In this document: positions 8,101 through 49,797 of the stretch, piece after piece | Position numbering within the stretch: the stretch's first letter is position 1 | How the letters are laid out: each line of letters starts with the position of its first letter | Assembly (NCBI GenBank): GCA_029582155.1 | Contig: CM055899.1 | Span: 56,439,853 to 56,503,852 of the forward strand | Length of the DNA: 64,000 bases | Reading direction: 5' to 3' | Origin: Panopea generosa | Taxonomy: Eukaryota > Mollusca > Bivalvia > Adapedonta > Hiatellidae | Notes under the pieces: generated by a model | Database searches by the model: none | What the model was told of the DNA's origin: nothing | Seen by the model: the letters and a program-made list of their open reading frames with translations, nothing else | Made by a program: the position numbers and the translations under genes

Positions 8101-11100
8101 AGTTTTGCAAAACCCAAAGTAAAAATTGTTCAATACCATACAGTATTTTGTTCAATGAGGTATCATTCTGGCCAATCAGAATTCATTTATTTATTGATTA
8201 TATAATAAATGATAACTATCGTATTCAATTACATGTACATACCAGTAATGGTCCTGTGTCTTGCAAAATGGCACCACATATAGCCGTGGCAGACAATCTA
8301 ACACACAACCTTCCAATGCCATATCCACTGTTACAGGTTCTGCTCTGAATTATAGTTGAATGCTCGTGCAGTTTTGGTGATACATGTGAATATTTTTTTT
8401 TTTTTGAAAACCCAATAAACCTGCATAAGACAAAGTAAAAACCAATAAAGTGTATTAACACATTGTAGGTTCACGATTACTTCTATGCACCAAGTGTCCT
8501 TAAAGAAACGGCACACTCGAAATATCTGACTCCTCCTCAAACAGCCGACTCCAAGTCAACATCAACTCTGTGTTTTACTGATTCCACTGGATTTCTACAT
8601 CCCTCAATATACCACCGACTACTGGCCGCTTGCCTCACGAAGTGGTCAATATCAACACAGAATCAGAAACATCTGATATTCTGTGGGTGTGGAGTATTTG
8701 ACATCAACACATCTCACCGAGTTACAATATACTTCCTGGAAAATGTCGTCCAGATATGGGTTACAAAATATAGTCGAATAACAACAGATCCAGACGTGTA
8801 CGTATGTGCAGAGGTAAGGCAGTTTGTGGAACAGACATTACAGCGGATAACACAACACTTGGGTCAAAGTAGCAGGATTGATGCATATGTCCAATGCCCG
8901 CGTGTTACAGGAGTAAGAAGTGGGTTGCTACCGTTGAGTGAGTTCTTGACGAATGGCGAGTGTCCATGCAGTTGGCACGATGAAATGCATGTTCTGACGT
9001 TTTCAGAGATGTTATCGGTCTGGAATTACCTTGGTGATGACTCTGGTGCAACTGGGCAGAAAGGTATTATATGTTTGTTTTAGTCTTAAACTGAAATATG
9101 GATTCGTTATTATTTATTATTTACTCATCAATTGATGTTTCTCTGTTGCATTGCCAAATGCAATGGCTGTTCCTGGATTTTATCGGCCCAGCTTGAGATG
9201 CTTATAATAAAACATGTTAATATATATTAAAATTATAGTATCGTGTGCATTCGAATAACTTTTATCACTATTAAGCTGTGTTAATCATTATATATTGTAA
9301 ATAACATTATCTATATTACATCATTATATACTACATTCCTATTTTGGAACATATTTTCCTTTTAAGTGACTATATCAGGAAAAAACGATATAAATGTATA
9401 AAACTATTTTTATATTGGATAAAAACCTCTCGTTATCATTAATAATTAAAATCCGAATAGTTTAGTATGTCAAGCCCGTCAAAACGTGACAAAATTGATA
9501 TTAAAATTATAGTGGTATACTAGAAACGAAATCCCCATTCTTAAAATAGACAGAACTTAAATACTGCTTGACGAACTTCACGTTGTCATTTTGACTTTTA
9601 CTAAGATGAAACGTGTTTATTACGTGTAAACATGTTAAACGAATCAAATAAAAATCCAAATGAAATCCCATGACTTATTCAATACGTCAAAATATGTTGC
9701 AATTTTTAAGCGTGAAATCTATTTAATCTAACCTAGGCGCGTAGCCCAAGTCAGGAAATCCCTTTTCAATATATATTTTTTGCATGTTTAAACAGATATC
9801 CTTTTGGCAATATGTAGTCAGTGAGTATATATAGGCATGGCATATTGAAAAAAAATTACATCCAATTTTAAAATTTTGAAAAATCTTGAAAAATTCCCTT
9901 TAAATGTTTGCAAAATATGCCAACTATGTGTGAACAAATATATGCAACGCACCACTCTGTCAATGTTTGATTAGAAACAGCGGCGGACCATTATTATAAG
10001 ATAATGGTCAATACTTTTAAACGGACACTTAAAACATAATATATATTATCAAGAACAATTACATAAAAGTATTTCACATTGATTCACATATAGGACCGAT
10101 CTGACAAGTAACCGTTGACAATTACGCAGAACTCTTTGTTAGAGTCAAAGATTTAAACCAATTGTTTGAAGAACGGACCAAAATTTAAAGAAAATCAAGG
10201 ACTGCAAATAAAACGTTCCAATTACAGAATCAAATCAATTAGGAGTACCATTCCTAGTATTTACCATTTTTCTGACATCGATAGGTTGTACGAAGGAGAA
10301 CATACGTCTGACATTAAGACCAAGTGATCTCTGCAATTATTGTGTACTGTTCTTTTTTTAAAGGACCTTTATGTTGATGTGGTGTCCAAGATCCATGCAT
10401 GTAGCAAACATTTTCTTATAAGGTGTAAGCCCATCATTGGTTTTTATTCTAAAGAAGATAATAAAATGTTGAAGGCTTATCATTCATAGAGAAACCCAAA
10501 TGAGAGAAATGAAACTTACATTTTACTGTTTGTCAACCTCTGCACTCCCGAAATTCCACTGACCCGTTATGAATATTAAATCCCCTTTAATGGAACCAGT
10601 CTTAACTGTTATGCAAAATATGTTTCAAACATCAAGTAATTAATTTGGAAACGATGATATATGAGACAAATTGAATTTCCTGTTTTCCAGTATTAATCAT
10701 ATATAACAATAAAATTCCCATTTCTGGACACCGATGGACTTTAGACCTTTTATTTTAAGAACTATAAGACCCCTACTCACAGGAATATGTAAACCAATTA
10801 TGAAACAACTTGACTGGTCAATTCTTGAGAGATTGAGTTTAAGATTAAAATATCATTATGATAAACTGATAGGCCCATGGGACGGAGCCAAATGTTTCCC
10901 CTGGATCATGACTTAAACTTGAGAGAGCTGAATGTACGACTGATTAAGACCACATGTGGGGGAAATCAGCAGACATGTTACAGGGAGACAGTCGTTTGAA
11001 GCAAACGTTAACGATAGACAGAGGACCAGACGACGCATTGTGAGCACAAAAGTTTACATGTGAGCAAATATCGAACTAATGTCGTCATAGTTACTTTGTA

Positions 11101-11431
11101 TTATCATGGGTATACGTAATAATCCTTTATTGCAGATAGTTTTGTCCTCTCTGATCAAACCCTTGATAGGGTCCCAAATGAAAAGGAATTAGCCACAATA
11201 GCGAATAGGATTGGAAACAAATGGAAGCAGCTGACATTAGAGTTGGGATTGTCGCAAGCGGATTTTGAACAGGCTCAGGCGAACCATCCTCACAGCGTAG
11301 TGGATATGGGCATCACTATTCTGATAAAGTGGGCGAGAAAGAGTGGGACAACTGCGACATTTAGGGAACTGGAAAGTGCCTTGAAGCAGACGGATATATG
11401 CACTGTTGACTTGTTTAAAGGTATTAGGTGA
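1182..11431 (+). CDS. ROCO-family protein, COR plus Death domain (3' part, five exons)
   Basis: Exons: 1182-1303, 5429-5589, 6603-6730, 8469-9063 and 11136-11431. All internal edges are AG/GT and intron phases agree, giving 433 residues to a TGA at 11429-11431. Exons 1-3 read as the first half of a COR domain: they contain LQLFLRFQHDLGTIVYF and then VLLDPQWTIDALKCLITA, the signature of the ROCO family. Exon 4 (198 codons) is the second half of COR, with YFYAPSVL and FLHPSIYHRLLAACLTKW. Exon 5 is a Death domain (LATIANRIGNKWKQLTLELG onwards, then a WARKSGTTATFRELESAL helix) ending the protein. The ROC GTPase and any LRR, ankyrin or kinase part must lie left of the window. ROC-COR-Death proteins occur in DAPK1 and in expanded invertebrate families and act as GTP-regulated dimers in death or immune signalling; that role is inferred here. 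A minor doubt is a GT just after TTTAAAG (11420) that could be a further donor. Confidence 0.85.
2119..2183. repeat. (CT)n microsatellite
   Basis: Imperfect then pure CT dinucleotide tract, in the first visible intron of the ROCO gene. Confidence 0.95.
2841..5247. repeat. 2.4 kb nested palindrome (foldback element)
   Basis: The sequence from 2841 rightward matches the reverse complement from 5247 leftward, at high identity by eye, over about 986 bp per arm (2841-3826 and 4262-5247). The arms are separated by about 435 bp. Each arm is itself two diverged copies of one unit of roughly 500 bp: an outer unit beginning TTAAGGAGGAATATACC and an inner unit beginning near 3426 (right counterpart ending near 4660). 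The order is therefore A, A', A' inverted, A inverted. The motif TATGACGTCATAAACATGGC and variants recur in all four units. Open frames inside it are produced by the repeat and do not resemble a protein family. It lies in the intron just before ROCO exon 5429. It could be a foldback/MITE-type transposon, a head-to-head insertion, or an assembly artefact. Confidence 0.85.
7079..7275 (+). mobile_element. SINE family B, diverged copy
   Basis: The 3' part carries CTTTGGCAAGACAGTTTATC and then ACTTCGAGCGTGATTTG, matching in order the SINE at 58997-59175, which has GAGCAAGCTACTTTT and GCTTCGAGCGTGATTTA. The tRNA-like head is badly decayed (remnants GGTGGTGGAGCATAGGATC and GGCTTTGAGTCTCC). It sits in the intron between ROCO exons 6603-6730 and 8469-9063. 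Confidence 0.55.
7736..7812 (-). mobile_element. tRNA-like relic (tRNA pseudogene or SINE head)
   Basis: Read on the minus strand, a D-arm-like GAGTGGTGTTAAG is followed by a variable stretch and then GGTTCGAATCCCACCGAGGG, an excellent B box and T arm. The length between boxes suggests descent from a tRNA with a long variable arm. No matching acceptor stem is visible. Confidence 0.4.
9443..9690. repeat. Dispersed repeat R2, copy 1
   Basis: This segment shares ordered blocks with 12932-13139: GAAACGAAATCCCCATTCT, then TAAATACTG.TTGACGA, then AAATGAAATC.CA.GACT and ATACGTCA. It is non-coding and abuts the R1 copy at 9722-9905. Confidence 0.65.
9722..9905 (-). repeat. Dispersed repeat R1, copy 2 (inverted)
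   Basis: The reverse complement carries the same blocks as 655-855, including GGCTACGCGCCTAGGTTAGA and TTTAAACATGC. It lies in the last ROCO intron. Confidence 0.65.
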
Positions 11432-19583: not shown

Positions 19584-19919
19584 ATTGAGAGAACACTGCA
19601 TAAACAACAGGAATTTTCATTTCAACTAACATGTGCTGAAGTTTTTACTCTTTATTTGAATATGGCACATATTGATTGAACAGTATCGTGTTTTGAAAGC
19701 TTATACAAATTTACCTGATGAATGAACTACTATACAATAAACATAATTGCTATTTTTTTTTTTTTATTAAATTATCATCAAATCTATTAGATGTAGTTGA
19801 ACGTTTTATATGTATATGCAAATAATCTCAGACAACTCATGCTATTACTACTAATTACAAACAACAAACATCAAAAGTATTATGTTTTCCTACATCATAA
19901 CAAATGCTTATATACGAGT

Positions 19920-20503
19920 TTAGCGATTGGTGTTAATGTAAGGCGGATTATACTCCTTAAGCACTTTGTAAAAGAGATATTTCCGTTTCTTAGTTGCGTT
20001 CTTCCAGGACTCTTCACTCTCGAAACGTATTCTTCTTTCAGTTGTCTGGCTGTCCGTTTGATAGCAGTATGAATGGTATCTTTTCTTATCGAATCGAACC
20101 ATAAAACCCTGAATAAATATTTATCGATAAGAAGCTTTCTGTGTTTCGGCAATAGTTCGTTGAATGCTTTTTTTCTTGCTTTCTTTTCATTCAGTTTATC
20201 GTCGTTCACAAAATCTGATGCTATTTTGTCGAATTCGGGCTGAAGCGATTTTAATGCATTATCAACCATGTCGTACCAAGGGTCTAATGTTTCTTCCTTT
20301 TCATCCGAGTCTGATTCCATATCTGAATCATCGGTATTAGATTCGTCGGTAAGTTCTTCTTTCTCCAGCTCTTCTTCGGAACTATCGTCTCCGTGTATTA
20401 TATTCTTGTGCCGAAGCGTATTATCTTTACGTTTATACTCCTTTTTACAAAGATCACAGGCGAACATCCTCGGCGACAGCAAACTACTGAATGATTTGTT
20501 CAC
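19920..20503 (-). pseudogene. C2H2 zinc-finger / acidic protein with one frameshift
   Basis: From the ATG at 20503 (or an internal ATG 12 codons in, just before the finger) the protein begins with one C2H2 finger, CDLCKKEYKRKDNTLRH followed by four residues and H (C-x2-C-x12-H-x4-H). A strongly acidic Ser/Asp/Glu linker comes next (SSEEELEKEELTDESNTDDS), then a long charged helical region. Near 20022-20028 the frame breaks. The original frame continues without family character to about 19895, while the -1 neighbour frame continues the charged helical composition (ESEESWKNATKKRKYLFYK) to a stop at 19920, so a single base appears to be missing. It might be a young pseudogene or a sequencing error. 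Single-finger proteins with an acidic linker and helical C-terminus are, to my recollection, common accessory genes of large invertebrate DNA transposons such as Polintons; no polymerase, integrase or capsid gene is visible, so this is only a suggestion. Confidence 0.6.
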
Positions 20504-20545
20504 TTTTAATTAATTCCTTATACATATATAAAGTATTGGCACGAC

Positions 20546-25391: not shown

Positions 25392-28300
25392 TTATTTAGT
25401 TAAACAACAAAAGTAAGCATGATTGTCTTTAGATATCCATATATTCGGTAGTTTAAGACCTGCCTGGTTCACTAGTGTTTGTATCTGTTTCTCCGTGTGT
25501 TTGCCGCTTGAACCTTCATCTTCATATAAATTGATATATTCTCCTTTCTTCAACGTTATAGTTATACCTAAACCAGCTGAAAAGATATCATAACCATTAG
25601 TTACAAATCATTGTTTCTACAATAGTATCTATTTACTATGGAACTAGGACACCGATGGGCAATTGGTGCTTTGTCTTAAAATAGTATACCTCCCTATCAA
25701 TGCAGGTAGGGTAATAAACTATATCTTTGCTAATTGCCATTCATATTTAGATGAAAGTGACTATAATTTCGAATTGTCTACCTCTTGACCTTTATTAACT
25801 ATACAATCATCGCAATATGTTCATGCATATTGGTTAATTTTAAATGTAATCAAAAGTTTAATAAAGGTTTCAAAACAGTTTGATAAAGACTTTACCTTAA
25901 TATGTATACAAGTAATTGTTTTGAAAATTGCTGATCGTCTTGACATCATATGCATTTCAAGGATTGCTCCGTTAAAAATGCGATAGGTGTTGTTGCTAGA
26001 AAACTTTAATTAATTTTGATCACTTACGTTTGCGATTGTCTTAATAATCCTTTTAAAATGGCTAAAACACGTTTTTAACCATGCAATACAATTTAAAACA
26101 AACAGTTTTCGTGATCTTGAACAGGTATACCATTTTGCCACTGGTAAACCATACATCCCATGGTATTTCCTGAGTTATATCTCTTTCCAAACAAGTGTTT
26201 TTTTCAGTCTTGGTAAGAGAAAATTTCAGTCGCAATACGGGCTTTGTTATACAAAAGAAAAAACATACGTCAGACCTCTAACAGGGCGACGCTGTTTATA
26301 GTTATTCTGAAATTGTTTCATAAAACCGTCATGTGACAGTTCTTTGGCACCGCTTTATGTAAGGCAATATCGTTGCTATGGAAACATATTGCATACAGAA
26401 CCTTCTTAGCATATCGCAATCATTTGGCACCATATGGCTGTCTCGCATTTCCGGTGTTCCAGATTCTGTTAGATGCTTTTCATTTTGACTCATTATACAA
26501 GACCCACGTTTCGTCACCCATGACTATATTCTCAAAATCGGATTTGCTGTATTTCGCATGCATTTTCATTTTATTCACCATATTAACCCGTCATTTTTTT
26601 TCCCTTTGTCAACACATGCGGCAGCCAGCGTGCATTTATTTGTTTAACATTTTAATGTGTGTTTTTTTCAAAATTAGATGAGTTCGTCCCAACGACAAGT
26701 TTGTCATCAGAGCTTAATCCCTCACTGTGTATCAAGCATCCTTTTTCGCGGATGTATTCGATGTTTACAGGACGACCAACATCTTTCAACTGATGTTAAC
26801 CATATTGAAATTTTGCCACACACCTACAAATAGTATCGTACGACATCTGACCCCCCCCCCCCCCCACCCCCACCTCGTAAATGTATGTCACACACTTCTC
26901 GTTAAAAGCCTCTGACTTTAACCCAAGAAATTCCCTACCACGAAAATAGACCCTAACAAGCTGGTTTACCAGTCAGTTTGCATGCAGTGTAATGAATACG
27001 CTACCAAACACAAGCATTAAGGTTCAGTAAAAGTTAGAGACAGACGTTTACCTGGGACACGAATCAGTGATCATTCTAGCGATACCAAGTTGTTTCATTT
27101 ATATATTGCATGACTTCCGTGAAATAGTGCAGCAGTTGCATTATCTACGGAACACCCCATGTATGTGTTGATAATGACTTAAACACAATGATAAAATGTC
27201 GAACTACAAGACGTGCTATGCATATTGGTAGCCAATGCACAGCGTGATGCGTGTAGCAGTTACATGGTTTGTACTTAGCTAAAAAGCACCACTTTCTTTG
27301 GTAAAATAAAGTATGATTACAATACATAATATTCGACGTACGTATTGGGTAAGAAAGATCACATTTTGCCTTTGCTCTGTGTAGAACATTGCTTGATATG
27401 TCATCGGCTGTACTCATCACCACCTTGGTCTCCAGTTCAAATTGATCCAAATTTAAGTCCCTGTTTAGACGGCACAGTGCGTTAATATATAGATGATAAT
27501 GTAAGTCTGAAATAAATATATTTAATTTATCCAATGTCTGCAATTGATAACATTAACTTATTAGATATATACATCGAAAGATATGCTGATTACATCAATT
27601 AATAGTGTAAATGTAAGTAATATTTAACAAAATTAGTAAAATAAAAAAAACACAAATAAACACAGAACACAAACAACTCCCATAAAAAAAAAACACACAA
27701 TCAACCCCCGATCATAATAAAACAAAAAACACTTTGAATGTCATTTTTATTTTTATTTTTTTAGATATATTGTCATATTAAAACCGTGTTTCACTAGGGT
27801 TTAAAATAACAATTCAATTCCAAACTATGCCTATTTTGGCTATATTTAGCTTTAACATTTAAAGTTTATTAAACTACAATATCGTTGTTTAAATCTGCTT
27901 TGACAATTAAAAATATAAAGTTATTTAGCTGTATACAATACGGGCCCGGTAAGCTGAATCGGTAGCAGGTTTGACTATAAACCAAGGCGTCATGAGTTCA
28001 ATTCCCCGACTCAACTAAAGTCTGTATGATGACTGATGTACAACATTGCGCCTCATTATCATTCGTCTCTCACATACCACTGATTATCACTTACTTGTGG
28101 AGATGGGTGTGCTAGAGTACTGGTTTACCTGCTAGTATCTCATTACAGAGTGGTTATGTTAACCGATCGTCTGTTTGTCCGTCGATGGCATAAATATTAC
28201 ACTTAACAAATAAACAAAAACAAACTGTACATATCTTGATTTGCATCAGCTTAAAAGAAAACTGATTTAAGTAAATATTATAAAACAATGTCATATTTGC

Positions 28301-31300
28301 ATTATTATTGAAATAAGTTAATATAGCTATTAACGATTTTTTAAACAAAAATAATTATAATCATCAAACAAAACCATTCGTAACATTTTTATATGAACGT
28401 ATGATATAAGGGAAATCATGAACACTTAAATTATTAAAGTATAAAAATAAAGCGACATCACGAAAATTTAAAGTGGCATAACCATTATTTATGTCCTTTC
28501 AAATTAATAAAAACTGTAAATGTAATATTAAGTATATATTAGACCATGTCTGATGTAAAATAACGTTGATTACCATAAACAATTCGCTATTATGGCCAAT
28601 ATTTGAATTAAGCATGACCGGTGAAATAACGTAAATGATGAGGTAGTTACATGTTTATCCGTTTTCCGTATATCGTCTATTTAAATGGAATAAGCGGTTT
28701 AATTTCAACTTCGATGTTGTTGTATATAAGCCTATTCCACATCGCCACCGGTGACCCATATGGACGATGTTCCCAGAAAAGTGTAATAATGTTTATGTAC
28801 GTGGGGGGAGGGGAAGTGCAGGATTCAGATAGAAACCCATCGTAAGTTTCTTCTGGTTCTTTAGCAGTGTACTCTGTGTATAGCACCCAACCCCCACGTC
28901 ACACAGGCCCACAGTTTAAAGTCCTATCTGAACGACTGTTAAACGGTAAGACCATCGAATTGAACCCGCAGTCCCGAAACTAGAAGTCTCGTACTCTACC
29001 TACTGAACTAATGGGGCTTGCTAATTCAATTTGAATTGATACGCCGATCTTATTATACTCCCTTGGATACATATTTTGTTTATTTCCCTGGCAACACTAT
29101 TCTTCCTACTGTGATCCATAAACGGCTGGTAATACACACAAGAAAGGTTCCAACAAAATGAAAACATAGTATGTGTCCATATATATCTATGCCTTTGGAC
29201 ATATATATTGCAACCGTTCGAATCCTGAAGGATGACAGTTTTGGTCAGGTATATACAATTTAAAAGAAAAGGATAAATCAGCAAAGCAGCTAATTTGAAT
29301 ATTAGAATAACTCATTAGTAAATTCACGTTTAAAAGATATACCGGCTTTAAATTTATAAATGTATCCAAGGCCATGAGCATTAACGAAAATGCTTGTCAT
29401 TCATATACAAGTTGTTTTGTATCTTTTTATCTTTAGAATATAAAAATATTCAGATACTGATTTTACCTCTTATGTTTTACATGTATATTCAGTATTCTTA
29501 AAGACGATTGCTATGGTTTTTGTCACAGTTTTCCTATGGATAGATTTTGATGAAACCTCCCAGTATTTAAGTTTAATATATGTTCATGCAGATTTTCGGT
29601 ATAACCTACCTCCTTATCAACAAACCCTACCTTAAAAGTTGGCGAAATTATGTAGATTTAACAAGCAGTGCGAAAAAAGTGTTTACAATCGTTTACATAT
29701 AGTATTTTATTAAAAATATTACATATATTCATGCATATAACATCAATTATCATGGACATGGTAATTATAAGCTCAAATTTAACTGTTTAGGGTTTTTAAA
29801 GACAAAATCATTTTTACAGAGTGTCAATTGTTTTTCAATTTTGTAAAACAAATATAGAGTTTTTTTAATATTTTGATATAAAGTATGGATAAATTTTGCT
29901 TAAAACCCCACAAACTACTCTCTAATATCTAATATAAAGACAATTGAAAAAAATACACTTTACCGCGTAATTTGAGGCGAAAAGTAGTTTTTAAAGTATG
30001 CCAAATTAAATGAAATGCAGTTGCAAAGTTAACGTTTTTATACTAAATGAGCATATTTGTATAAATATTAAGAATTTTATTATATCTCATATTCAGGTGA
30101 AATTGCTATAAACAATTATTTTATACCATTATGCATACAATATATAAGATCAATTTTAGGCATATCCGTAAATTACTGTGCCATCCAAAATAGGGTATTT
30201 TGTAGTATAGCGGTATATAGTGATTCTTGAAGGTCTCGACAAAATTGCTTCCCTTTGTGCGCAGAATTTGTGCGCATGAGAAACTGTAGCAATTTTCCTT
30301 GTCAATGTAATAAATGCATTTATTCAATTCAATGCTGCTCGTTTTGTTATATGTTTATAAGGTGTATTACACGTTTAATCTTAACTATGGAAATGGTAAG
30401 TCTCCAGTATGTATGTCTTTCATCTCTTAAAAATCAACTTGTTTAACTTAAGGATGAAAATGAACATTTTTTAAGACTTACCCAGTGACCCGTTATATCC
30501 AGCCAGAATTTGTTCTTTGTCTTGAGTGACGTCAAATGATATCAAAAGATTGTCATTGTCTGCGGAAGGAAGATATGAATATATAAACAACGAAACCTAG
30601 AATGTACTACTACAGGTGTTGATATGGTATGAAAATGAAGTATATGTGTATAATTTTTGACTGTAAAGAATACTAACTGAAACCGTCCATGCAAAAAAGA
30701 AGAAAACAACAGAAGTATCCCTGACACCAATTGTTCTCTAACAAATTATGACGCATCCACGTATGTTACGGCGTAAACTACATACAATCAATCCTTTCTG
30801 AAACAGCAAGTCTTGGAAAGGTGCAAAAGTAGCCTTTTAAAGTTTTTGCTTAATACAGGTGAAATTGCTCTTAAGTATAGAAATGTGTAATAACAAATGT
30901 GGATGTTTAAGACAATAATCTGCTGAATGGACGTGTCCACTTACAAATGATGTTAATATTCAAAATGATTTAGCAGTACCTACCACTGTAACAAGGTATT
31001 CAGAAAGAGTAATATTTATTTGTTTAAAAAAAGTTTGTCACACGAGATGAAACCTTTGCTACAAAAAAATCTTAGCTTGAAAGTGTTTATCTGTTTAAAT
31101 ATACATTTATCCTCTTTTCTTCTTTAAATTCATTAAAGTTGATGTTATCACAAATACAAAAAGGCAGATAAATTGTATAGTAACAGGTGCATACCATGCA
31201 ATGCTTACATGTATGTACAGCAGATCAACGTATACCAACATAAATTAAATTTTCCTCACCTGTCATGGTCTGATGAAGACATTGTAATATGTCTACTTGA

Positions 31301-34300
31301 CCTTTAAACGGCAACATATAGATACCACTCAACCAAATAATAAGTTTTGGACCAGGAATCTGTCTAATAAAAATACAAAATGTTCTATAAACGCAAGCAA
31401 AAATGACACTTACGCTATATGATAAGTTCAATATACATTTTTAGCTCGACTTTTAGCAGAATAGGTGGTGGGGAGGGGTATTGTACTCGCCCCGGCGCCG
31501 ATGTTGGTTTTTAAGGTTAAAGTTTTTGTATCAGGTAAGATATCAATATAACCACTCTTTGGATATAAATGAAACTTCACATGTGTGTTAAGCATCACCA
31601 ATGCAACACAAAGACATAAGAAACATAACTCTGAGCTGCATTTTGGCATAGTTAGGGCCCTTTTTGGACTTAATTTTTCAGGTTAAATTTTTTTATCAGG
31701 TAAGATATCTATGCAATCACTTAATTGATATGAATGAAACTTCACATGTGGGTTCAGCATCCTTTGGAAACTCATACAGATAAGAATCGTAATTCTTGGT
31801 TGCATTTTGGCAGAATGATTTCCCTTTAAGACTTAGACTTTGTTTGTTTTTAGCAGGGTCAAGTTTGTAACACAAGGCGTTGAGCTTAGATGTTTGTCAA
31901 ATAGGGTCAGTTTGAAGTCCTCTCTCAAATGTGTTCAACACCATGACCTTGGAGTTGGCCCGCGTTTAGGGGTTGATATTTTTTTTTTATTAAAGTGTAA
32001 TATTTTTTGGCCTGACCTAAGGGGCTTAAAAAATCACTTTTCCATTTTCATTAACTGGTACCGAGATATTGTCCTCTGATGTGAAGTGCAGAGGTCCATA
32101 TCGTATGTGTATAAAACTGAATTACTTGTAGAAGGGTATCCAGCATTGATAAACTGTATGTCTTGGTACAAGACTATAGATCTATTAACAAGAACTCAGT
32201 CTTGTATATTACAAAATGATTTGGAGGTAGCGCATATTTGTATTGCATATGTAAAACATATATAAAACATTATTTCAGGTAATTAGTATTTCTTGATATG
32301 CTTGACCAATTTATATTATTCTAGTCATGCAATTGATTCAGAAGTACTTAGAGTTATTATATGAACATGGTGTTCCTTAAGTTAGGTATTGGCACATCTT
32401 TTGGGGTTATTTGTCAGCAATGGTTAATGAATGCATAAAGCAATTTTAAAGTTTAAAAGACAAATGTAACAAATGACAAATGCTGAATTAAATAATATGA
32501 CAAAACCCATATCTGTTGATAATGAAAATAAACAGTGTTGGTAACTAATTTTGCTAATTTATTGTTAACAGACAAGCAATAATTATAGCTTAATTTTGCC
32601 ATCCCTGAGTTTTAATTGTTTTCCATTTGGTTCTTATTTCCTAAAAAAGTTGTTGTTTTAGAACAGCATCGAAATAGTCGAGCGCGCTGTCCCACCGACT
32701 GCTCTTGTTATTAATTATATGATACAAATCAATCAATTAATCAATCATCAATTATTCAATCAATCAATCAATCAGCTAATCAAGCATTCACATAAATAGT
32801 CAATCATATACACCTTAGCTTGTTTATACCGTTGTAGTAATCGCCAGCTATTGGTTTCACATCAAGCCTTTCTCCGTACAGTTTTGAAAGGGCGTCACTA
32901 GTTTCAGCAAGATAATCTATAAGAGATACAATGTAGCTTAAAAAGAGAAAAAAGAAAATACCTAGTAAGTATTTATATTAAATGAATAAATCATAGATGA
33001 ATTTATAAAAGTAAAACCCCCGAAAATCGAGCTTAGCCTTTTGTGTCATAATGAACATTGTATTAGAATTTCAAAATATCTAATTCAGGCATTTTTAAAT
33101 TATTGCACGGACACCAACGTGTGACGGACAGACAGATGGACAGACGGAAGACCCAAATCAGTGTACCCCGGTTTTCGCAAAGCATAATAATTTTATTATT
33201 TTTATGAGCAATTTATCGCTTCTGTGCAATTAATCAGTAGTCATGGGTTCCATTTCAATAATACACTATGAAAAAAATGTAAGGGATGTGTTAAATACAT
33301 ATTTTATCGCAATTTACTCGATCATTCTCATTCTCCCATAGTGTGTTTCTGAACAGAAACTACTGCCAAAGTTCATTTCTACGTTGACAAGTTCACCATT
33401 GAATGGTATAAGTAAAGCGGATAATTACCGGTACTAATGAAAACAATTAATAATTGTACCTATACCTGTCTTAACTATATCGAAGTTACAAAGTTGATAA
33501 TATGTTTACAACGGTTCCCAAATAAACAAAAACGGACCTTTGTTCATTTTTGTTAGTTTGATGCTCTTGCGAAGGTGTTTATTGGAGAGAAACCGTTGAT
33601 TTGTAAACAAACACCTGAGTGTATACACTTTTATAATATGTTATTTCTATATTTCCGTTTGCATACGTTCTCGATGGTTGTCAAATAAATAAAACAGTAA
33701 TGCTGAATTATATCATAACCAAAAAAACTGCCCTTTTTGAAGTTTAATGAACCTATGAGTATGGAATATACATTAAGTTTACCTCAACACTACATGTACA
33801 TATTATAACCTATAATCTACGATACAGGTAGAATACGTAGACTGCTACAGAATGCTCATATGTAACACCAGTACAAGTAGTGAAATGTTGACCGTGCAGT
33901 GAACTGGTATAAAGCATAAACGGCATCCAGAGTACCTAGATCTGAATCACATAGATGCTTTGGTAATCTCTGTGTGTAGAAGGGATTACAAATATCAGTG
34001 TAAGTGTTTTCAACGATAGGTTAGAGTAAAGGGGAGATCTGATAAAACTGAAGACCAGATAGGTGTGCCTTTTTACAACTCAGTTGCCTTTACCTACTAC
34101 ATACGTTCTAGAACGATCGTGTTCTTGAGAAACTAACATAATTATTTGGGAAACATTGTCCAAGTAGAGACCATCAGAGCATTTTGTTGTTGCATTATAA
34201 TGTACCGTTATATGTCCGTAATAGTTGAGGTAACATAAAAGTTATGTTAGATGAGGTTGCCTTATAATATAAAATTCACGCTAACAATAGAAACTAATTT

Positions 34301-35828
34301 ATGATTTGAGAACTTTTACAATATAAAAACATGCCTACAATAGTCACGGAGCAATGGTACCATGAACAGATACACCCGGCCCATTATAGATGTGGGTACG
34401 GAACAATAAACAAAAGTTATGTCCGTAATAGTTTAGGTTGGGATAACAATCTTCGCAGTAACTTAACAGTCTTGTTCCCGCCGAAATGTTCATCTCTCGG
34501 TGTGAAATTTTCCATCTTATAATGATATACATTTGTCATGCAGACGCCACTGTACACTGTACTTGTAATGTATTTCTGACCTGATGATATGTCATTTGGA
34601 ATATATGTAAGCGTCGACTGTTTCTCAAGAAGAGCATTTATAAACATCCGGGTCTTCACAGAATTACCACTCCCAATATCGACTAGCATACACGGTATTT
34701 TCAGTTGGCCAATCATCTCCTGGATAAAAATGTACGTTAATAATATCGTAGAGTCGGAAACAAGGCCACAAATTAAATACAATTTAAAACATCCCAAAAT
34801 ATACTTTAACAGTGTCATATGTAACTTACTTAACTCTGTGTTCGGGGGGTGACTGTAACATTGACAGCGCTACCGCTGTTAACATATATATTTTCTGACA
34901 AAGTTTAAATATGAAACGTATTAAAAACGTGTACGACGTTGTCATATCAATAGATAACTGTTTACTTGCCGATTTGCTATCAGAATTAAAGTTTGATATT
35001 GGGCATTTGTAACATTGTTAAAAATACAGGTCATTGTAGATTTTGTGTTACCAGATTGAAAGTAAAATTTAGCATACTAGACAGAAATACAAGTCATTGT
35101 GGATCCGGAGTTACCGTTTCCCTGTCGTAGGTAAAGTATACTCTAGGTAAAGATATAGTTCAGTGCAGACGTATCCTTACACTGCTGTTAATAAAACTTT
35201 ATTATTTATTATAACAATCTTTCTGTTACACTGTTAGAAATTCAGCCCATTCTAGAGCTCACTGTATTGAAAATATAACTTATCATTAACAAAAAAAAAC
35301 TCATTGGAAATGCACTGTTACCCTGTCGAAGTAAAGCTTACCATTGACGACAGAGAAAGAACTCATTGAAAACTGACTGTTTCTCTGTCAGAAGTAACAC
35401 TCATCACAGACAGAAAAAAAACAGTTTATTGCTTACACATCGTTATGTTGTCTGAAGAAATGATTATTAAAGGCGCTGTGTCAAATTGTAAAAAAAATAA
35501 AGAAACGACAAAAAATAACAAAATAAAAACAATTTACATACCTTGTATGCATACCGTTGCAATATGTGTAGTAAAACTTATTGAACACTTTCCGTTACTC
35601 TTTCGGAAACAATGTTTATTCAACAGTTATGTTGCCAATAATAAAGCTTAGACTTACCGTAACATTGTCGGAAATGCAGCTTATTTCAGATTTATGAAAG
35701 TAGTACACGTCACTCTCTGCTAGACATCGGTCATTGTAACTGGACCCAATCTTGTCATAACGGTACCATATAGGTAGATACTTTGGGCTGTATTGTAGTC
35801 CTTGAATGAGTTCCAACTTTGTGTCCAT
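25392..35828 (-). CDS. EgtD-like (Methyltransf_33) SAM-dependent methyltransferase, complete seven-exon gene
   Basis: Exons in order: 35828-35658, 34719-34581, 32916-32814, 31363-31260, 30559-30482, 27506-27363 and 25576-25392. They total 924 nt (307 residues plus TAA), the size of bacterial EgtD (about 320). All phases fit and splice edges are AG/GT; the donor after 27363 (AAAT/GTGATC) is weak. Residues 8-35 hold the family N-terminus (GLQYSPKYLPIWYRYDKIGS). SAM motif I is VDIGSGNSVKTR (70-81), followed by YIPNDIS. Then come PIAGDYY (125-131), LIIWLSGIY (145-153), LLISFDV (177-183), a helix INALCRLNRDLNLDQF and finally LKKGEYINLYEDE (255-267) with a C-terminal AGLKLP.IW. EgtD trimethylates histidine to hercynine, the first step to ergothioneine. 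The substrate-binding loop near 258-270 departs from the bacterial TE.S pattern as I remember it, so the substrate is uncertain. The start context (GCAATGG) is good. Introns hold a mariner relic and SINEs. It was probably a single stand-alone domain in the cytosol, as no signal peptide is seen. Confidence 0.88.
26300..26840 (-). pseudogene. Decayed mariner-type transposase in an intron
   Basis: Scattered minus-strand frames read, in mariner order, LKDVGRPVNI, then INARWLPHVLTKGKK, then FENIVMGDETWVLYNESK. The last corresponds to the first catalytic Asp region (GDE.W) of the D,D34D transposases and the middle to the conserved ARWVP helix. Stops and frame changes break it throughout, and the second and third catalytic Asp regions are not found. 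It is a fossil inside the last intron of the EgtD-like gene. Confidence 0.7.
26849..26865. repeat. poly(C) tract
   Basis: A run of 15 Cs broken once by A, at the upstream edge of the mariner relic. Confidence 0.9.
27943..28215 (+). mobile_element. SINE family A, diverged full-length copy
   Basis: It has a tRNA-like head (GGGCCCGGTAAGCTGAATCG and ATGAGTTCAATTCCCC), then the family-A body (CATTATCATTCGTCTCTCAC and GATGGGTGTGCTAGAGTACT), ending TCGATGGCATAAATATTACACTTAA and a short AAC tail. It is more diverged than the copy at 331. It lies in the intron between exons 30559-30482 and 27506-27363 of the methyltransferase gene, antisense to it. Confidence 0.75.
28735..29017 (-). mobile_element. 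SINE with a tRNA-Arg(TCT)-like head
   Basis: Read on the minus strand from 29017, GCCCCATTAGTTCAGTAGGT gives the acceptor and D arm. An anticodon stem-loop CGAGA/CTTCTAG/TTTCG has TCT in the anticodon position, and GCGGGTTCAATTCG is the B box. The T stem and 3' acceptor no longer pair. A body with CTGCTAAAGAACCAGAAGAA and GATGGGTTTCTATCTGAATC follows, of a type seen in molluscan SINEs. It is intronic in the methyltransferase gene. Confidence 0.6.
30781..30955. mobile_element. Family M MITE, diverged copy
   Basis: Shares TTTTGCTTAATACAGGTGAA, GTGTAATAACAAATGTGGAT and TTTAAGACAATAATCTGCTG with the intact copy at 15429-15606. The ends have decayed. Located between exons 31363-31260 and 30559-30482 of the methyltransferase gene. 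Confidence 0.6.
31441..32712. mobile_element. Non-coding dispersed element with inverted GTCGAGC ends
   Basis: It begins TAGCTCGACTTTTAGCAGAA and ends AATAGTCGAGCGCGCTGTCC.., so the ends are related by inversion. Inside is a direct duplication of about 185 bp: 31499-31680 and 31683-31850 share TTTTTATCAGGTAAGATATC, GAATGAAACTTCACATGTG and CTTTGGAAAC. No coding frame is seen. The end sequence resembles repeats I recall as common in molluscs; assignment needs a library. Confidence 0.55.
32724..32787. repeat. (AATC)n microsatellite
   Basis: Imperfect tetranucleotide run directly after the dispersed element and just before the exon that ends at 32814; possibly the tail of a lost SINE. Confidence 0.85.
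35029..35430. repeat. Degenerate ~60-bp tandem repeat in the first intron
   Basis: Recurring phrases TCATTG.A.AT, GTTACCCTGTCG.A.GTAAA and GACAGAAA occur at a step of about 60 bp. Related phrases (TTACCGTAACATTGTCGGAAAT) reach into the first exon's donor region at 35651-35685. Confidence 0.5.
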
Positions 35829-41278: not shown

Positions 41279-44200
41279 TTATTGTAGGAATAGGTTATTG
41301 TATTTATTCCATTGTGTTTCAAAATAATGAATATCATTATTTTTTTGGGCAATGCATTTTAGTGATAAGAATGTATTTGTGATTCTGTTTTTAAATGCAG
41401 CTACAGATAATGTAGCATTATGTCGCTTCGTAGAAAATATATAATATTTAATTTCTATGATTACTAACAGGTCTGCATTTGAATAGATGTTCCCAATATT
41501 AAATATAAATAGTTCTTCTATAAATGTTATATTGATATTTTTCATTTGAAGCCACTGCTTAATATCTTGAAGAAATTGTTGCGTTGCTGTACATGTCCAA
41601 AGCATATGTATTAGAGTTTCCTCTTGTTGGCAATCATGGCATAGTGGACTGTTAATTATCTTAATTTTATGTAGATATTGTTTTGTTGGTAAAATTCTAT
41701 GGTAAATTCTAATTTGGAACCAACTTAAAATTGAACTATAGTTGTTTTTGAAGGGTGCTTTGTAAATATTATTCCACGTTTCTTGTTCTATTTCATAATG
41801 ATGTTCCCATTTAAGTTTAGATGTTGGCTGGAAGTTATTTTTATTCAGAATGTTATATAATTCCTTACAACCCTTTTTGTGTATAATAATTTTGGATACA
41901 GTAAAAGGTAAAATAGGGTAACTGCTTTTTTTTATTTAAACTGTTTATATTGTATTTTGTAAAGAATACTTTGATTGCATTTATAATACCATTATATTGA
42001 ATAAAATTAGTGTTTATATTATAAATTTCTGTAAATTCTTGTTCTGTATAAAAACTGCCATTTTCTTTTATTAAGTCATTTAAATATATAATGCCCTTAC
42101 TGTACCATGTTTTACAAAAGAAGGATTCTCTTCCAACTAAAATATCTTCATTATAAAATAGTGGTGACCTGATAATGAGATCTGTTGTTGTCGGTTTATT
42201 TAGTTTTTGATAATTATATAATGCTTCAAGGACATCTTTCCAGAACAAATTCTTTATTTTGTCTCTTTGTTTACTTAAATATTTGCCACCAAAATTTATT
42301 AGATCTTTCAAATTAAGTTTTTCTTCAATTATATTTTTCCAGTTTCCTTCCATTGTTATCAGTCTTCTTATCCAAGTTATTTTTAGTGCTGAAATAAATG
42401 CTTTTATGTTAACCATATTTAGTCCTCCATCTATATATTGTTTGATTAGAACCATGTTTTTTATTTTTGCGGGGCCTTTCCATAAAAATTCATAGAAAAT
42501 TATATTTAAATCTTTAATTATATTATCATTTGGAGTAGGTAGTGAAATAAATAGATGGTTTAATATTGGTAGTAATAAAGATTTGATGACAATTATTTTA
42601 CCAAGTGGTGTCATACATCTGCATTGCCAGAGTTTGATTAGCTTTTTAATTTTTATTATTTTGTCTTTATAGTTTATATTGATAATTTCATTAAGGTCTA
42701 CATTAAAAATGATACCTAATAATTTAAATTCTGTTTTGCCCCAGTTTAGTTTCCATTTTGTTTTGATTGTTTTTGAGCTATATTTGTTATGACCTATCCA
42801 TACTACTTGGGTTTTGTCAAAGTTGACTTTAAGACCAGAATATTCTGAAAAAATTGATAATTCATTAAGGGTTTCATTTAAAGACTTATCTGACCCGTCA
42901 AGAATAGCCGAAGTATCATCAGCATATTGTGAAAGTTTATATTCTGTTTCCCCTATGATTGTGCCCTTTATATTTTTATTGTTTCTAATTTTTATTGCAA
43001 GAATTTCGGAACATAAGATGAAGATATAAGGTGACAAGGGGTCGCCTTGACGACAACCGCGACCTATTTGAAAAAATGATGATAGATGGCCTCCTTGATT
43101 AACAGCAAGTGTAGCATTTTTGTAAAATAAATTCACCCATGATATAATGGAGTTTCCAAATCCAAAATATTTTAAAACTTTATTAATGAAAGACCAAGAG
43201 ATGGAATCAAAGGCTTTTTCAAAATCAATTAGTAACAATAACCCAGATATGTTTTTTTCTTCCGTATTCTGCATAATATCATATAATAATCTCGTATTTT
43301 CTCCTAAGTATCGTCCTGCAATGAACCCAGTTTGATCTGAGTGTATTCAATTATTTAAAGTGCTTTTAATGCGATTTGCTATACAGCCTAAGGCGATTTT
43401 ATATACGCAATTTAAAAGTGAAATTGGTCTATAATTTTTCATCTGGAATCTACTTTTATTTTCTTTAGGAATGCAAGTTATTATCCCCTCTTTTTGAGTA
43501 ACACATAATTCTCCTTTATTAAAACCAGCATTTATTGAACATACAACGAAATGTCCTAATTTACCCCAAAAAACCTTGTAGAAATCACAATTATATCCTG
43601 AACTTCCTGGACTTTTCCCATTTTTCATTGCTTTAAGCGTAATTGAAGCCTGCTCAAAAGTAATTAAACCATCTAGTGAATTTGACTCTATTGATGTAAG
43701 TTTAGGAATTTCATTTGTTACATTTAAAAAATCATTATTTAAGTTTATATCTATTAGAGTTTCATCTCTACTTGAATAAAGTTGCTGATAAAAAAGTTGA
43801 GCTTCTTTAAGAATATCTGTTTGATTAGTAAAATAGCTTTCATCATTTTTTTCAAGTTTTGGTATTATTTTACTGGAATAATTATGTGATTCTCATTTGC
43901 AAAAATAATTTGAAGGTTTTTCATCCTCTTCAATAATAGTTGCCCTCGATCTTATCATAGCCCCACGCATCTTATGTTTTCGGATATTTATAAGTTCATT
44001 TTTGTAATTTTCTAATTGGTTGATATTGTCAGGTTTTAGTTTTTTTTCTAAATTGTCTATTTTATTTATCAAATCTTTTTCTAACTTGTCAGTCTCTCTC
44101 TTTTTAAAACTTGAATAAGATATTGACTTGCCTCTGATTTCCATTAGTAACGTTTCAAGAAATAGCTGATCATCTATAATAAATTCTATTTTATCATTTG

Positions 44201-45069
44201 CAATTTGTTCAATATTATTAAAGTTATATATGGGTAATGCATATTGTGCCTTAATTTCTTTGATTTTATCATTTATTGTATTTAAATAGTCTATATCATT
44301 TAAAAGACTGTTATTGTGCTTCCAGAGACCTTTACCAGGTTTAAAATTGTTAAAAGAAATATTTAAAATAACCATTGAATGGTCGGATCTGTAACTAGAT
44401 TCAATATGACATTTATTTACCGAAGAGAGTAATTTTTCTGACACTAGAAAAAAATCAAGCCTAGCCTGTTTTAAAGGTGTTTTACGCCTCCAGGTATAGC
44501 GTTTTAATGTTCGATAACATTCTCTAAATGGGTCAATCAAGTTATATTTTTCTTTTATTTCTAAAACTTTTTGTTGCGCTTTTTTATTCTTTGTATCAGA
44601 GTAATTGCAGTAATCTAATTTCGGGTCTTGTACAATGTTGAAATCTCCGCATAAGACATAAGTTTCATCATTATATACTTCTGCTTTTATCAAAAGATTA
44701 TCAAAGAAAAATGGGGAGTCTTTATTGGGTCCATATAAGGTTATAAGAGTAAATCTATTATTATCTACAGTTAAATCTGCAATTATGTAATTACCCTCAG
44801 GGTCAGAGGTATGTGCATGTATAGTATAGTCTAAGTTTTTATTGAATAAAATCGCACAGCCACGACTATTTGAGCTGACCGAGGAGAAAAGACATTTATT
44901 ACCCCATTCTGAATTAATAACATTTTCTATATAAGTTGTTGAGTGAATATCTTGTAAACAGTATATCTGACATTTTTTTTGCTTTTAAATAATTAAAAAC
45001 ATCAAGTCTTTTGTGAACTGAACCAAGACCCTGACAATTAACAGTTAAAATTTTGAGGTCAGTCGCCAT
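41279..45069 (-). pseudogene. LINE ORF2: APE endonuclease, reverse transcriptase, zinc knuckle (broken)
   Basis: Starts ATG 45069 (ATDLKILTVNCQGLGSVHKR, the endonuclease N-terminus) and ends at a stop at 41279. Endonuclease landmarks are LQDIHSTTYIENVI, LCGDFNIVQDPKLDYCNYSD, QARLDFFLVSEKL and YRSDHSMVI. RT landmarks are PGSSGYNCDFYK, MKNYRPISLLNCVYKI, LLLLIDFEKAFDSISW, GRGCRQGDPLSPYIF and YADDT. The C-terminus has a CHDCQQEETLIHMLWTC zinc knuckle. Lesions: one extra A in an A8 run at 44973-44980, in-frame TGA at 43893-43895 and 43347-43349, and another extra A in an A8 run at 41926-41933. Apart from these four the frame is continuous for about 1260 codons. The protein would nick target DNA and copy the LINE RNA; as read here it cannot be made in one piece. 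Confidence 0.88.
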
Positions 45070-46261
45070 TGTGTGAAAATCTATATAAAATGTAGGTTAA
45101 ATATGCATGACCTAGACATAGAGGAATACTCAAACTAAAAAACAAAAAAGCTACAAAAGTGATACAAAACATATTAATGCTGTGCTTAATAAATTGTGAA
45201 AAAATGCACATCATTTTGGTGTTAAAAAATTGAAAATAATGTCAATGTAATTTATAATTATTGATACAAATTTTTTTTTATATATTTTTTTAAATCATTA
45301 AATTGTGTGTCTCTCTCTGTAGACAAAAAATATTGCTGATAAATTAATAAAGAACAAATGCTGTCTATATTAGAATAAGTCATATCTTCCAGTCTTAGAC
45401 TGCATATTACTAGCCGGACAGACAGTCAATTGATTTATTTTGTAACTTTACAGTTGGTTTAAATTTTACATAATTAATAAAAAAAGGAACAAAAAAATAA
45501 AATGAAACCAAAAAATCTCAATTATATTAGCATGTCAAAACATTAAATTTGATTCCACCATAACGATTTATGTTTAGTTTTGTATAACCATATTTTTAGT
45601 GAAAATTATTTTTTATTAAGAGTGTGTACATATACTTTGTTTTTCATAAATATCCAATTACTTATACAGGCGTGATCTAGTCCGCCATTTGTGTATGAAA
45701 AAGGGATATATTTAATGCAAAGTGTACCAAGTATATCTAATCTATGTTGTTGTTGTTTTGTTTTTTTTGATGATATTTATTTAAAGCTAGATTTTTTATT
45801 ATTCTTTTTTAAAAAATATTTTATGGCATATACTTACATAAACTACATTCCTTTTCCAAATTTTGCTTAAGTCCACAAAAGTAAAATTCATCATTTAAAT
45901 CCATTTAGAACACATATTATAAACAGTAAGAATGACATGTGGTTCATAAGTGATACTGAAAGTCCCACTTAAGTTTTAAATGAACCATCAAATTATAATA
46001 AATCCACTTAAGCCATGTAAATAAATATTTATAAACATTTAAATCCATTTGAATTAGCATGAAAACACATATTATAAACAATAAGAATGAATTGTGGTTG
46101 GTAAGTGATACTGAAAGTCCCACTTAAGTTCTAGTTGAACCACTGAAATTAAATCCACTAAAATCCATTTAATGGAGATGTAATACGATTAATCAATAAT
46201 CCAATTTCTGTCAGTAAAAAACACGATACAGAAAATCCCACTAAAGTTCTAGAGAACTATT
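45070..46261 (-). repeat. LINE inter-ORF spacer with internal tandem repeats
   Basis: At 45895-46258 there are about 2.5 units of some 140 bp. They share AATCCATTT, ACACATATTATAAACA.TAAG, GTAAGTGATACTGAAAGTCC and CCCACTTAAGTTCTAG. The remaining 800 bp holds A/T runs and no frame. A 1.2 kb spacer is long for this kind of LINE. Confidence 0.7.
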
Positions 46262-47175
46262 TTATTTCTTTTTGATGATATCCTCAATCTTGTCGAAAAG
46301 ATCAAATGTGTACTTCCTGTCATTCTGCGTAGTTTTAGCATAGATGGAATTGTTGAAATACCATCCCTGGTCAATATCATGATGCTCGCATAGTCTTTGA
46401 ATCAATGCTGCATTAAGCTTTGTGACATCGTCAACAAGACGATGCCCATCTGCTTTGAAGGCTTTGCGGTTTTTCATTATTTTGGCCTTTTCAGTGTTAT
46501 TGGACAGTTTGACTAAAACTGGACGTTCGTGATTTATCTTTCCAGGTATGCGGTGAATGGCTACTATTTTGGATTTTTCAAGAGTTATTCTCTTCTTCTG
46601 GAGCATGTCACAAACATGAGTGGTCAATGTCTCTACAGTTTCACCCGGCCTTTCCTTAATGTTCATGATCTTGAAGTTGTTCTTACGGGAATACTGTTCA
46701 TTGTAATTGGCCTTAGCTAATGCTTCTTTAGACCTGCTATCTGCTTTTTCACATGTAGATTTGACATTAGCCATTTGTGTTTTAGTTGTGTTAAGTCCTT
46801 TTTAAGCATTTCATTTTCTGTTACAAGATTTTTAATATTCTCTTGAATTGCTTTCGTTTTTTCTTCCACCTTTATGGCAATGGTTACCTCCATGTTTTCA
46901 TTTAGATCTGCAATGATTTTTGTAACAGTCTGTTGGATAAACAACTCCATCTCATCTTTCTTCAAAACCATTTTGATGTCTCCCCTCAAACTTTTAACTT
47001 CTTCCGATAATCCCTCTAGATGATGACTGAGTACAGTTATTTCTTCAACACTTGAATTTGGTGATACCTCTGTAATTGACCTTTTGAACGGTGGTGGCTT
47101 ACTGCCTGAGGCTGTGTTTGAAGATCCTGATTTCCCCATTTGTTTGGCTGGCTTAATTATATCACTTTTATTCAT
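46262..47175 (-). pseudogene. LINE ORF1: coiled coil plus L1-type RRM (one frameshift)
   Basis: Starts ATG 47175 with a basic, proline/serine-rich head (MNKSDIIKPAKQMGKSGSS). A long coiled coil follows (MVLKKDEMELFIQQTVTKII, KVEEKTKAIQENIKNLVTEN). After a frame change near 46780-46795, consistent with one missing base, it continues in the next frame with the RRM-like domain NNFKIMNIKERPGETVETL..IVAIHRIPG..RPVLVKL and a C-terminal domain ending DLFDKIEDIIKKK. L1 ORF1 proteins trimerise through the coiled coil and bind LINE RNA as chaperones. Confidence 0.85.
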
Positions 47176-47469
47176 GATTGTAGTTGATTGTAGTTAATTC
47201 TCCAATGTGTTAGGGATTGTGTCACAACACTAAAGTCCTTGAAATTTAAAATTCCAAACAAAGGAATTTTGCAGTTAGTTTTTCCTTTTTTCCTTTTTTC
47301 TTGAAAATTAATTTAAATTTTCAAATAATTTTTTCACTTTTCTGTCAAGTTATACTTTAGACACAAATGTATCATAAATAGTTCATGATTTAACACTAGT
47401 AAACATGTTTTATCCACCAAAATGTCAGCAGAGAATAAACCTAAAACATCTCTACTTGAAACCCCTCAG
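47176..47469 (-). promoter_or_regulatory. LINE 5' UTR (putative internal promoter)
   Basis: The 294 bp between the target-site duplication and the ORF1 start. Full-length LINEs carry their promoter here; no specific element was identified. TTCCTTTTTTCCTTTTTTCT at 47281 is a pyrimidine-rich patch on the plus strand. Confidence 0.5.
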
Positions 47470-47482: not shown

Positions 47483-48394
47483 GTTAGTACATAGAATATT
47501 CATTTGTAAAATACATGTACATACATGTACATAATAGTAAAAGAAGAATAAGGAGCCATCATTTAAAAACGGTCAGTAACAGAACGGCCATTACATGTGG
47601 AGCGTAAACCTATTTGATGGGTACATCCAACGAACATGTATGAATATGTTATTTTCGAAGTTTACATTGTAAAAAGAACAACAATAAATCGAAATTAAAA
47701 TACTAGTGTTACAGTATAGAATGCTTACATTAATATTACAACGCCGTATTCGTGTTTACTATTATAAGTACCCATGATCGTTAAAACAATTCACTACAAC
47801 TCTTTCTACGAAGAGCTATTACAGTTTAACTGTATAATAATCCTACTCAAGATGTTCCCATTAACTCATTAAGCACTGAAATTGCTTATCTATCAGATTT
47901 ATCATGCGGCATCCTCGGGTTAACAGTCGTATTATTGCAGTCGTATTATTAACAGTCACATTATTTGCAATTATTGTGGTTGTATTGTTGAAGTGTATAG
48001 TGCTGATGATGAGACGAAATAAACACTTGGATTCTGATAAATGAAACAATCTTTAGAAGTTCGTTATTTTTTCTATTACATTGCAGTTAGACTGTTAGAC
48101 CGGTAACTCAATATTCCGGGTATCCGAACATAACTATTTTGTAGAATATATTATTAAACACATCGTGTGCAATGGTAGTCTATCATGGAGTTGGATTTCC
48201 GACCTGCACACTTCGAAAGCTTCATCATGGCCAATTTCACGCACATTACATGGTAATTAATTAAAATCAGATAAAAATCAACAAAAATAAATAATTGAGA
48301 TATAACAGGGAATATCTATACCCCGATATCCTTGATGTTTGGCTTACCGTACATGTGTTCGTTTTGGCAGTTTTATGATAATATTACGACTTTG
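47483..48394. other. Intergenic, nothing recognised
   Basis: AT-rich; a minor repeat of GTCGTATTATT / GTCACATTATT at 47925-47965. No exon seen. Confidence 0.4.
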
Positions 48395-49265
48395 GCATCG
48401 TGTTATTGCTATTTCGTCATCGTGCCTTCGCTCCTTCGCTACCGTGTTATTGCTATTTCATCATCGTGCCTTCTCTCCATCACTACCGTGTTATTGCTAT
48501 TTCGTCATCTTGTCTTCGCCCCACCACTATCGTGTTATCGTTATTTCGTCATCGTGCCTTCGCTTCATCACTACAGTGTTATTGCTATTTAGTCATCGTG
48601 CCTTCGCTCCATCACTATCGTGTTATTGCTATTTCGTCATCGTGTCTTCGCTCCATCACCATCGTGTTATCGTTATTTCGTCATCGTGCCTTCGCTCCAT
48701 CACCATCGTGTTATTGCTATTTCGTCATCGTGCCTTCGCTTCATCACTACCGTGTTATCGTTATTACGTCATCGTGCCTTAGCTTCATCACTATCGTGTT
48801 ATTGCTATTTCGTCATCGTGCCTTCGCTTCATCACTACTGTGTTATCGTTATTTCATCATCGTACCTTTGCTCCATCACTATCGTGTTATTGCTATTTCA
48901 TCATCGTGCCTTCGCTCCATCACTATCGTGTTATTTCTATTTCGTAATCGGGCCTTCGCTCCATCACTTTCGTGTCATTGCTTTTTCGTCATCGTTTCTT
49001 CGCTTCATCACCATCGTGTTATTGCTATTTCGTAATCGGGCCTTCGCTTCATCACTATCGTGTTATTGCTATTTCATCATCGTGCCTTCGCTCCATCACT
49101 ATCGTGTTATTGCTATTTTATTATCGTGCCTTCGCTCCATCACTATCGTGTTATTGCTATTTCGTAATCGGGCCTTCGCTTCATGACTATCGTGTTTTTG
49201 CTATTTCGTCATCGTGCCTATCGTGTTATCGCTGTTTCGTCATCGTGCCTTCGCTCCATCACTAT
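48395..49265. repeat. 44-bp satellite, about 20 copies
   Basis: The unit reads CGTGTTATTGCTATTTCGTC then ATCGTGCCTTCGCTCCATCA then CTAT (44 bp). Because 44 is not a multiple of three and no unit contains a forward stop, all three plus-strand frames stay open for long stretches (147, 211 and 188 codons overlap). The frames have no start context or family match and are best read as by-products of the repeat. Confidence 0.95.
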
Positions 49266-49797
49266 TGTGTCCTTGGTTCACTAATATCGTGGCATTGCTC
49301 CATCACCATTGCAATCGTATTGTCATGGCGTCGCTAATTCCTGACGACAAAGTATTAGCACGATAGCGCTCATGAACACCGCAGAAAGGGGAGTTAACGT
49401 CTGGATGAGCGAGACTATTATGTAGTCTGTGGCACTAATTTGTGATGTCTTTCAATAGTTTAAATGTTAAATTTATAGAAGGTGCACGTTGCATTTTATA
49501 ATATTAATTTTGACACTGGCTCCTTTAAAAGGACTTTTGCAAAACATAACCTTGTAAATTTGTTTTGTTTGTTTGAATAAGTATCGTCATGTTATGCCAC
49601 CAAGAGATAATAGACGCTTATTTAGCCTAAACATTCCTGGGATCCTGGGAGGCAAACCAATACTCTTACACATCGGAAATAACTATAGCTTAAAATGTTC
49701 CCACTTGAATCAGGGGTAAGAGACGAATTGCAATGAGACAATGTCGTGAATCAATTATCATAGAAAATGTATCAGGCTTAACAAGTAAAAAGACCTG

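Follow-up and report, generated by a model that had tools for sequence, protein, structure and literature searches.

A split animal gene of the EgtD methyltransferase family in Panopea generosa with a predicted change in its substrate pocket

Methyltransferases of the EgtD fold are known from bacteria and fungi, and animal Methyltransf_33 proteins are present in databases. The fungal protein Egt1 is an EgtD part, homologous in its methyltransferase, fused to an EgtB-type sulfoxide synthase. In mycobacterial EgtD, Tyr56, Tyr206 and Ser284 hold the carboxylate of the substrate and Asn166 its alpha-amine, while Thr213 and the carbonyl of Ala205 hold a water that binds the imidazole (as described in excerpts of PMC8593015). 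An excerpt of a review names Asn166 and Gly161 as critical for successive methylations (PMC9103826). Animal OvoA offers a further parallel, in that its pathway to a thiol derived from histidine also includes a methyltransferase part (excerpt of PMC4768315); according to passages of PMC4768315 and PMC7175103, molluscs are among the marine animals for which OvoA or ovothiol is reported. Here we analyze a 64,000-nucleotide stretch of the bivalve Panopea generosa (the window; contig CM055899.1, positions 56,439,853 to 56,503,852 of the forward strand), whose minus strand carries a predicted stand-alone gene of this family running from position 35828 to 25392.

The protein encoded by this gene, hereafter the window protein, matches a single Pfam family, PF10017 (Methyltransf_33), with 158.7 bits against a curated cut-off of 23 (E 2.3e-46). 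The match spans residues 6-312 and covers profile positions 4-302 of 304, and this whole-length hidden Markov model (HMM) result bears out the Methyltransf_33/EgtD placement made in an earlier note on this DNA. Its closest solved structures are EgtD (PDB 4pim, 4uy6 and 7scf; 7scf at E 7.5e-19); it is 24-27% identical to six bacterial members. It falls well short of the cut-off of the EgtD equivalog model TIGR03438 (128.1 versus 290.9 bits), as do two diverged members of the same genome on chromosomes C11 and C14 (the latter called C14b; 150.9 and 151.8 bits). The EasF model (TIGR03439), which shares the superfamily and an altered side-chain pocket, fits less well than EgtD, at 107.4 bits against a cut-off of 205.55. 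On sequence grounds the window protein is a Methyltransf_33 member that we file neither as EgtD nor as EasF, because it scores below both curated cut-offs and, with regard to EgtD, lacks Asn166.

The gene comprises seven minus-strand exons whose predicted splicing yields a frame of 945 bases (314 codons plus the stop). The six introns, of 700-2975 bases, are each bounded by GT and AG, and the exon phases are compatible. The earlier note had placed seven exons at these positions, with outer coordinates that proved exact and phases that join without conflict; its length of 307 residues is seven short. The frame is complete from start to stop, and the stop codon follows the methyltransferase part, in keeping with the stand-alone form that the note had described. 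A G stands at both -3 and +4 of the start codon, and an AATAAA lies about 48 bases downstream of the stop codon.

Exon 1 (35658..35828) is an open frame with a GT donor that runs from the start codon to residue 57 and includes GLQYSPKYLP and the equivalents of Y39 and Y56. Exon 2 (34581..34719) holds the S-adenosylmethionine (SAM)-binding motif VDIGSGNSVKTR, exon 3 (32814..32916, phase 1 to 2) holds IAGDYYNGINKLR, and exon 5 (30482..30559) holds LISFDVTQDKEQILAGY with the Y206 equivalent. Exon 4 (31260..31363) reads WLSGIYML where EgtD has GSTIGN, exon 6 (27342..27506) has 165 bases, and exon 7 (25392..25576) opens with an AG acceptor and carries the substrate loop and the stop codon. Exons 2 to 6 are each flanked by AG and GT, and exons 3, 4, 5 and 7 are kept in five near-identical copies on chromosome C6. 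An alternative donor for exon 3 at 32830 was rejected: it breaks the frame, and 32814 is correct.

We built a profile solely on bacterial EgtD (seven sequences), leaving the window protein out, and ran it over 264 kb. The two best matches were the frames of exon 2 (E 3.5e-8) and exon 1 (E 9e-6), while the best E values for the same profile in five dinucleotide shuffles ranged from 0.61 to 3.8. Taken singly, exon 7 gave E 0.043, exon 5 E 0.11 and exon 3 E 5.1, and exons 4 and 6 were not among the matches listed for this profile in the 264 kb. We regard it as confirmed, at the level of sequence, that the split gene is genuine and beyond chance. Phage records showed no match; searches of viral contigs yielded one partial match (22%) for the alignment and no relative for the protein. 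The only match among GTDB genomes, in Flavobacterium, was set aside: it reads as an OmpA-like protein with a short common peptide, in a genome without a PF10017 match.

We take G86, G88, K92, D113 and D141 to be SAM-binding residues of EgtD. A residue map on solved EgtD, numbered by matching the residue names of PMC8593015 to the solved chain, places equivalents of all of these and of Y39 in the window protein. The carboxylate grip is likewise intact, with Y56, Y206 and S284 retained as Y42, Y194 and S277, the last adjoining a loop of altered length. Across the eight rebuilt animal members, the core of the SAM site, Y206 and S284 are kept in all and Y56 in seven; C14b is the exception, with Phe at 56 and also Glu at 141. 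The rest of the pocket differs from EgtD. Thr213 and Met252 are both His, no clear counterpart of Gly161 can be assigned (one alignment shows a gap there, another Ser), and at position 166 the window gene and four near-copies have Met, one near-copy has Val, and C11 and C14b keep Asn. The changed C-terminal substrate loop of the earlier note is indeed there, as four additional residues beside Glu282, whose own equivalent cannot be placed.

Because the window branch has lost the contact that EgtD makes with the amine of histidine, it likely does something other than EgtD. We tentatively propose that this branch of the EgtD fold encodes a stand-alone, SAM-dependent methyltransferase whose small-molecule substrate bears a carboxylate and is not histidine, since the SAM and carboxylate sites seem kept and the contacts to amine and imidazole are lost or altered. 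In this reading the protein would be expressed, would bind SAM and such a substrate, and would pass a methyl group to the latter.

The window gene belongs to a large family in its own genome. Searched at the level of exons with a threshold of E 0.001 or better, the whole genome (1.474 Gb in 39 contigs) gave 21 matches, which group by exon 1 and exon 2 into 17 places, or 16 if two C14 matches 66 kb apart are one gene. Chromosome C14 holds six of these, C6 five, C8 three, C7 two and C11 one. The window gene stands outside that list, and counting it in, the family comes to about 18 loci, a number that for large families is a lower bound. Four of the 21 exon matches contain a stop inside the matched stretch, so some of the places may be damaged copies.

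The window gene and five others form a set of near-identical seven-exon copies within 2.2 Mb of chromosome C6, and a search of 100 kb to each side of the window found no further copy. In all five others, whose exon borders were projected by alignment and then read, each of the seven exons recurs with an open frame and GT-AG borders, and protein identity to the window copy is 94.6-95.5%. Four diverged loci were examined in part. The C11 and C14b members could be rebuilt with all seven exons (47.1% and 42.4% identity to the window protein); their splice sites were chosen only among those matching the phase of the window gene, so that sameness of phase is partly assumed. A third, C14a (C14:55730575-55739000), matches exons 1, 2, 6 and 7, with exons 3-5 unmatched at the thresholds used except for an exon-4-like piece behind a stop, and is probably a damaged copy. 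The fourth, on C8, matches exons 1-3, and its exons 4-7 went unmatched in the stretch examined. A tree of these sequences has only eight animal and seven bacterial rows and does not tell the origin of the family.

Comparison of the copies points to an old constraint on the protein. The C6 copies differ from the two diverged members by a pS of 0.84-0.91, a level at which synonymous sites are saturated, and by a pN (nonsynonymous change) of 0.32-0.39; the protein therefore stayed conserved through a long period. Pairs of recent copies show less nonsynonymous change than change at alignable intron bases: of 15 possible pairs 10 were tested, and all 10 gave ratios of 0.15-0.58, with Fisher p from 2.4e-6 to 0.028, values that come from pairs sharing branches and are not independent. 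A first count over exons 1-6 of these copies gave a pooled pN/pS of 0.55. None of the six C6 copies has a stop, a frameshift or a lost splice site.

Several observations weigh against the proposed methyltransferase in the window branch. The GSTIGN motif is SGIYM, one residue shorter and with Met for Asn166, and all six window-type copies lack this Asn, so catalysis may be gone. The joined window protein scores 149.4 bits against the bacterial-only profile, the lowest of the eight rebuilt members. The window copy alone has a 12-base deletion in exon 6, which has 177 bases in all five near-copies. Constraint among the recent copies is mild, with dN/dS (nonsynonymous to synonymous change) of 0.09-0.86 over 15 pairs and Fisher p < 0.05 in four of the 15, and the long-term constraint may be older than the loss of Asn.

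The main rival builds on the first of these points. The window branch could be a pseudoenzyme, still folded and perhaps able to bind SAM or a ligand, that no longer performs methylation and that could regulate or bind the Asn-bearing members; we think this possible, if on balance unlikely. Met or Val at position 166 in six of six window-type copies is what a pseudoenzyme would lead one to expect, as are the missing loop residue, the unclear Gly161 and His at 213, and the SAM motif, GSG in five of the six copies, is GGG in the copy C6f. Against this, Y56, Y206 and S284 are retained, the protein was constrained over the long term, and other methyltransferases function without an Asn at the position equivalent to N166.

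The mild recent constraint also admits a second rival, in which the recent duplicates are decaying or near neutral and the function is carried by other members. The upper dN/dS value among the recent copies, the deletion specific to the window copy and the C14a locus, where exons 3-5 went unmatched at the chosen thresholds, are in line with such decay. We nevertheless find it improbable, since all six copies are free of stops, frameshifts and splice-site losses and nonsynonymous change stays below intron change in 10 of 10 pairs.

The reading closest to the family name is a true histidine N-alpha-methyltransferase that produces hercynine. EgtD is both the nearest named model and the nearest solved protein, and the carboxylate grip is retained; even so, with the score less than half the EgtD cut-off, N166, T213 and M252 altered, and a separate EgtB missing from the exon-level genome search, we judge this reading very unlikely. 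The suggestion of the earlier note that the protein may act on histidine is weakened by these same findings and by the unclear Gly161. Unlike the genes of bacterial EgtD, the window gene has introns, and no EgtB partner was found for it; unlike fungal Egt1, it ends after the methyltransferase, and matches to the EgtB model occur only on C8, C10 and C17.

Of these four EgtB matches, one is at an OvoA-type locus on C8, one on C17 and the other two on C10. The C8 locus scores more weakly with the EgtB model than with the OvoA model, which gives nine exon matches there (C8:64074296-64087182, minus strand) that together span positions 32-443 of 444. It is named by the model alone; two of the nine matched stretches contain a stop, and no single exon attains the whole-protein cut-off. 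One of the two C10 exons was rejected as EgtB because a formylglycine-generating enzyme is its best match (E 2.7e-16 versus 0.00032 for EgtB-IV), and the C17 exon because sulfatase modifying factor 2 is (E 1.7e-19 versus 9e-7 for EgtB). The exon-level search of the whole genome thus found no EgtB distinct from the OvoA-type gene, with the limit that a strongly diverged EgtB could escape it. With no separate EgtB seen, an ergothioneine pathway is disfavoured, and the sequence evidence speaks against placing the window gene in one. Compared with OvoA, the window gene has a different architecture and matches PF10017 alone in Pfam.

Changes elsewhere in the pocket raise the question of a larger substrate. 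An enzyme that methylates a larger aromatic amino acid, like the fungal EasF group or a tryptophan-accepting EgtD variant, would fit the His, Leu or Val at the M252 position and the remodelled E282 loop across the eight animal members. M252 and E282 are also the two positions altered in the EgtD variant 4pip, which we take to be tryptophan-active. The EasF score lies far beneath its cut-off, the window branch has lost N166 and the alignment of position 282 is uncertain, so that we regard this reading as distinctly improbable.

Returning to the proposed carboxylate-bearing substrate other than histidine, one specific version is very unlikely: an N-methyltransferase new to animals that holds its substrate by a carboxylate, needs no primary alpha-amine and makes a betaine-like osmolyte of marine invertebrates, such as a methylated pyridine carboxylate. 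This class of substrate is guessed from the pattern of residues, and we know of no animal synthase for such osmolytes. Another amine, the alternative of the earlier note, may also be the substrate. In the open-licence literature on EgtD or Methyltransf_33 in animals, no functional study of an animal member was found among the matches listed.

The window holds several further features. On the plus strand, frames at 5304-11428 that carry a Death domain (40 bits) and match COR-A weakly (22.6 bits, below the cut-off of 35.3) are perhaps parts of one or more ROCO/Death-type genes. The Death-domain frame, together with the introns, the size of the genome and the exons resembling OvoA and sulfatase modifying factor, marks the DNA as that of an animal. 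At 48336-49334 (plus strand), overlapping long frames of the repeated peptide YCYFVIVPSLHHYRVIAI and its variants look like a tandem repeat array, not a gene. The minus strand carries a long interspersed nuclear element (LINE)-like retroelement with long open frames at 41282-47193 (reverse transcriptase 87.7 bits, endonuclease 35.5 bits), a DDE_Tnp_4 transposase-like frame at 55690-56013 (60.3 bits) and a 204-residue frame at 19898-20509 with an acidic stretch and a C2H2 zinc finger match below cut-off (17.9 versus 25.2 bits).

With about 18 loci in one animal, some of whose members keep the critical Asn and others of which have lost it, the family presents a natural experiment on how the EgtD fold changes its substrate. 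It is also a lead to an unknown methylated metabolite of animals.

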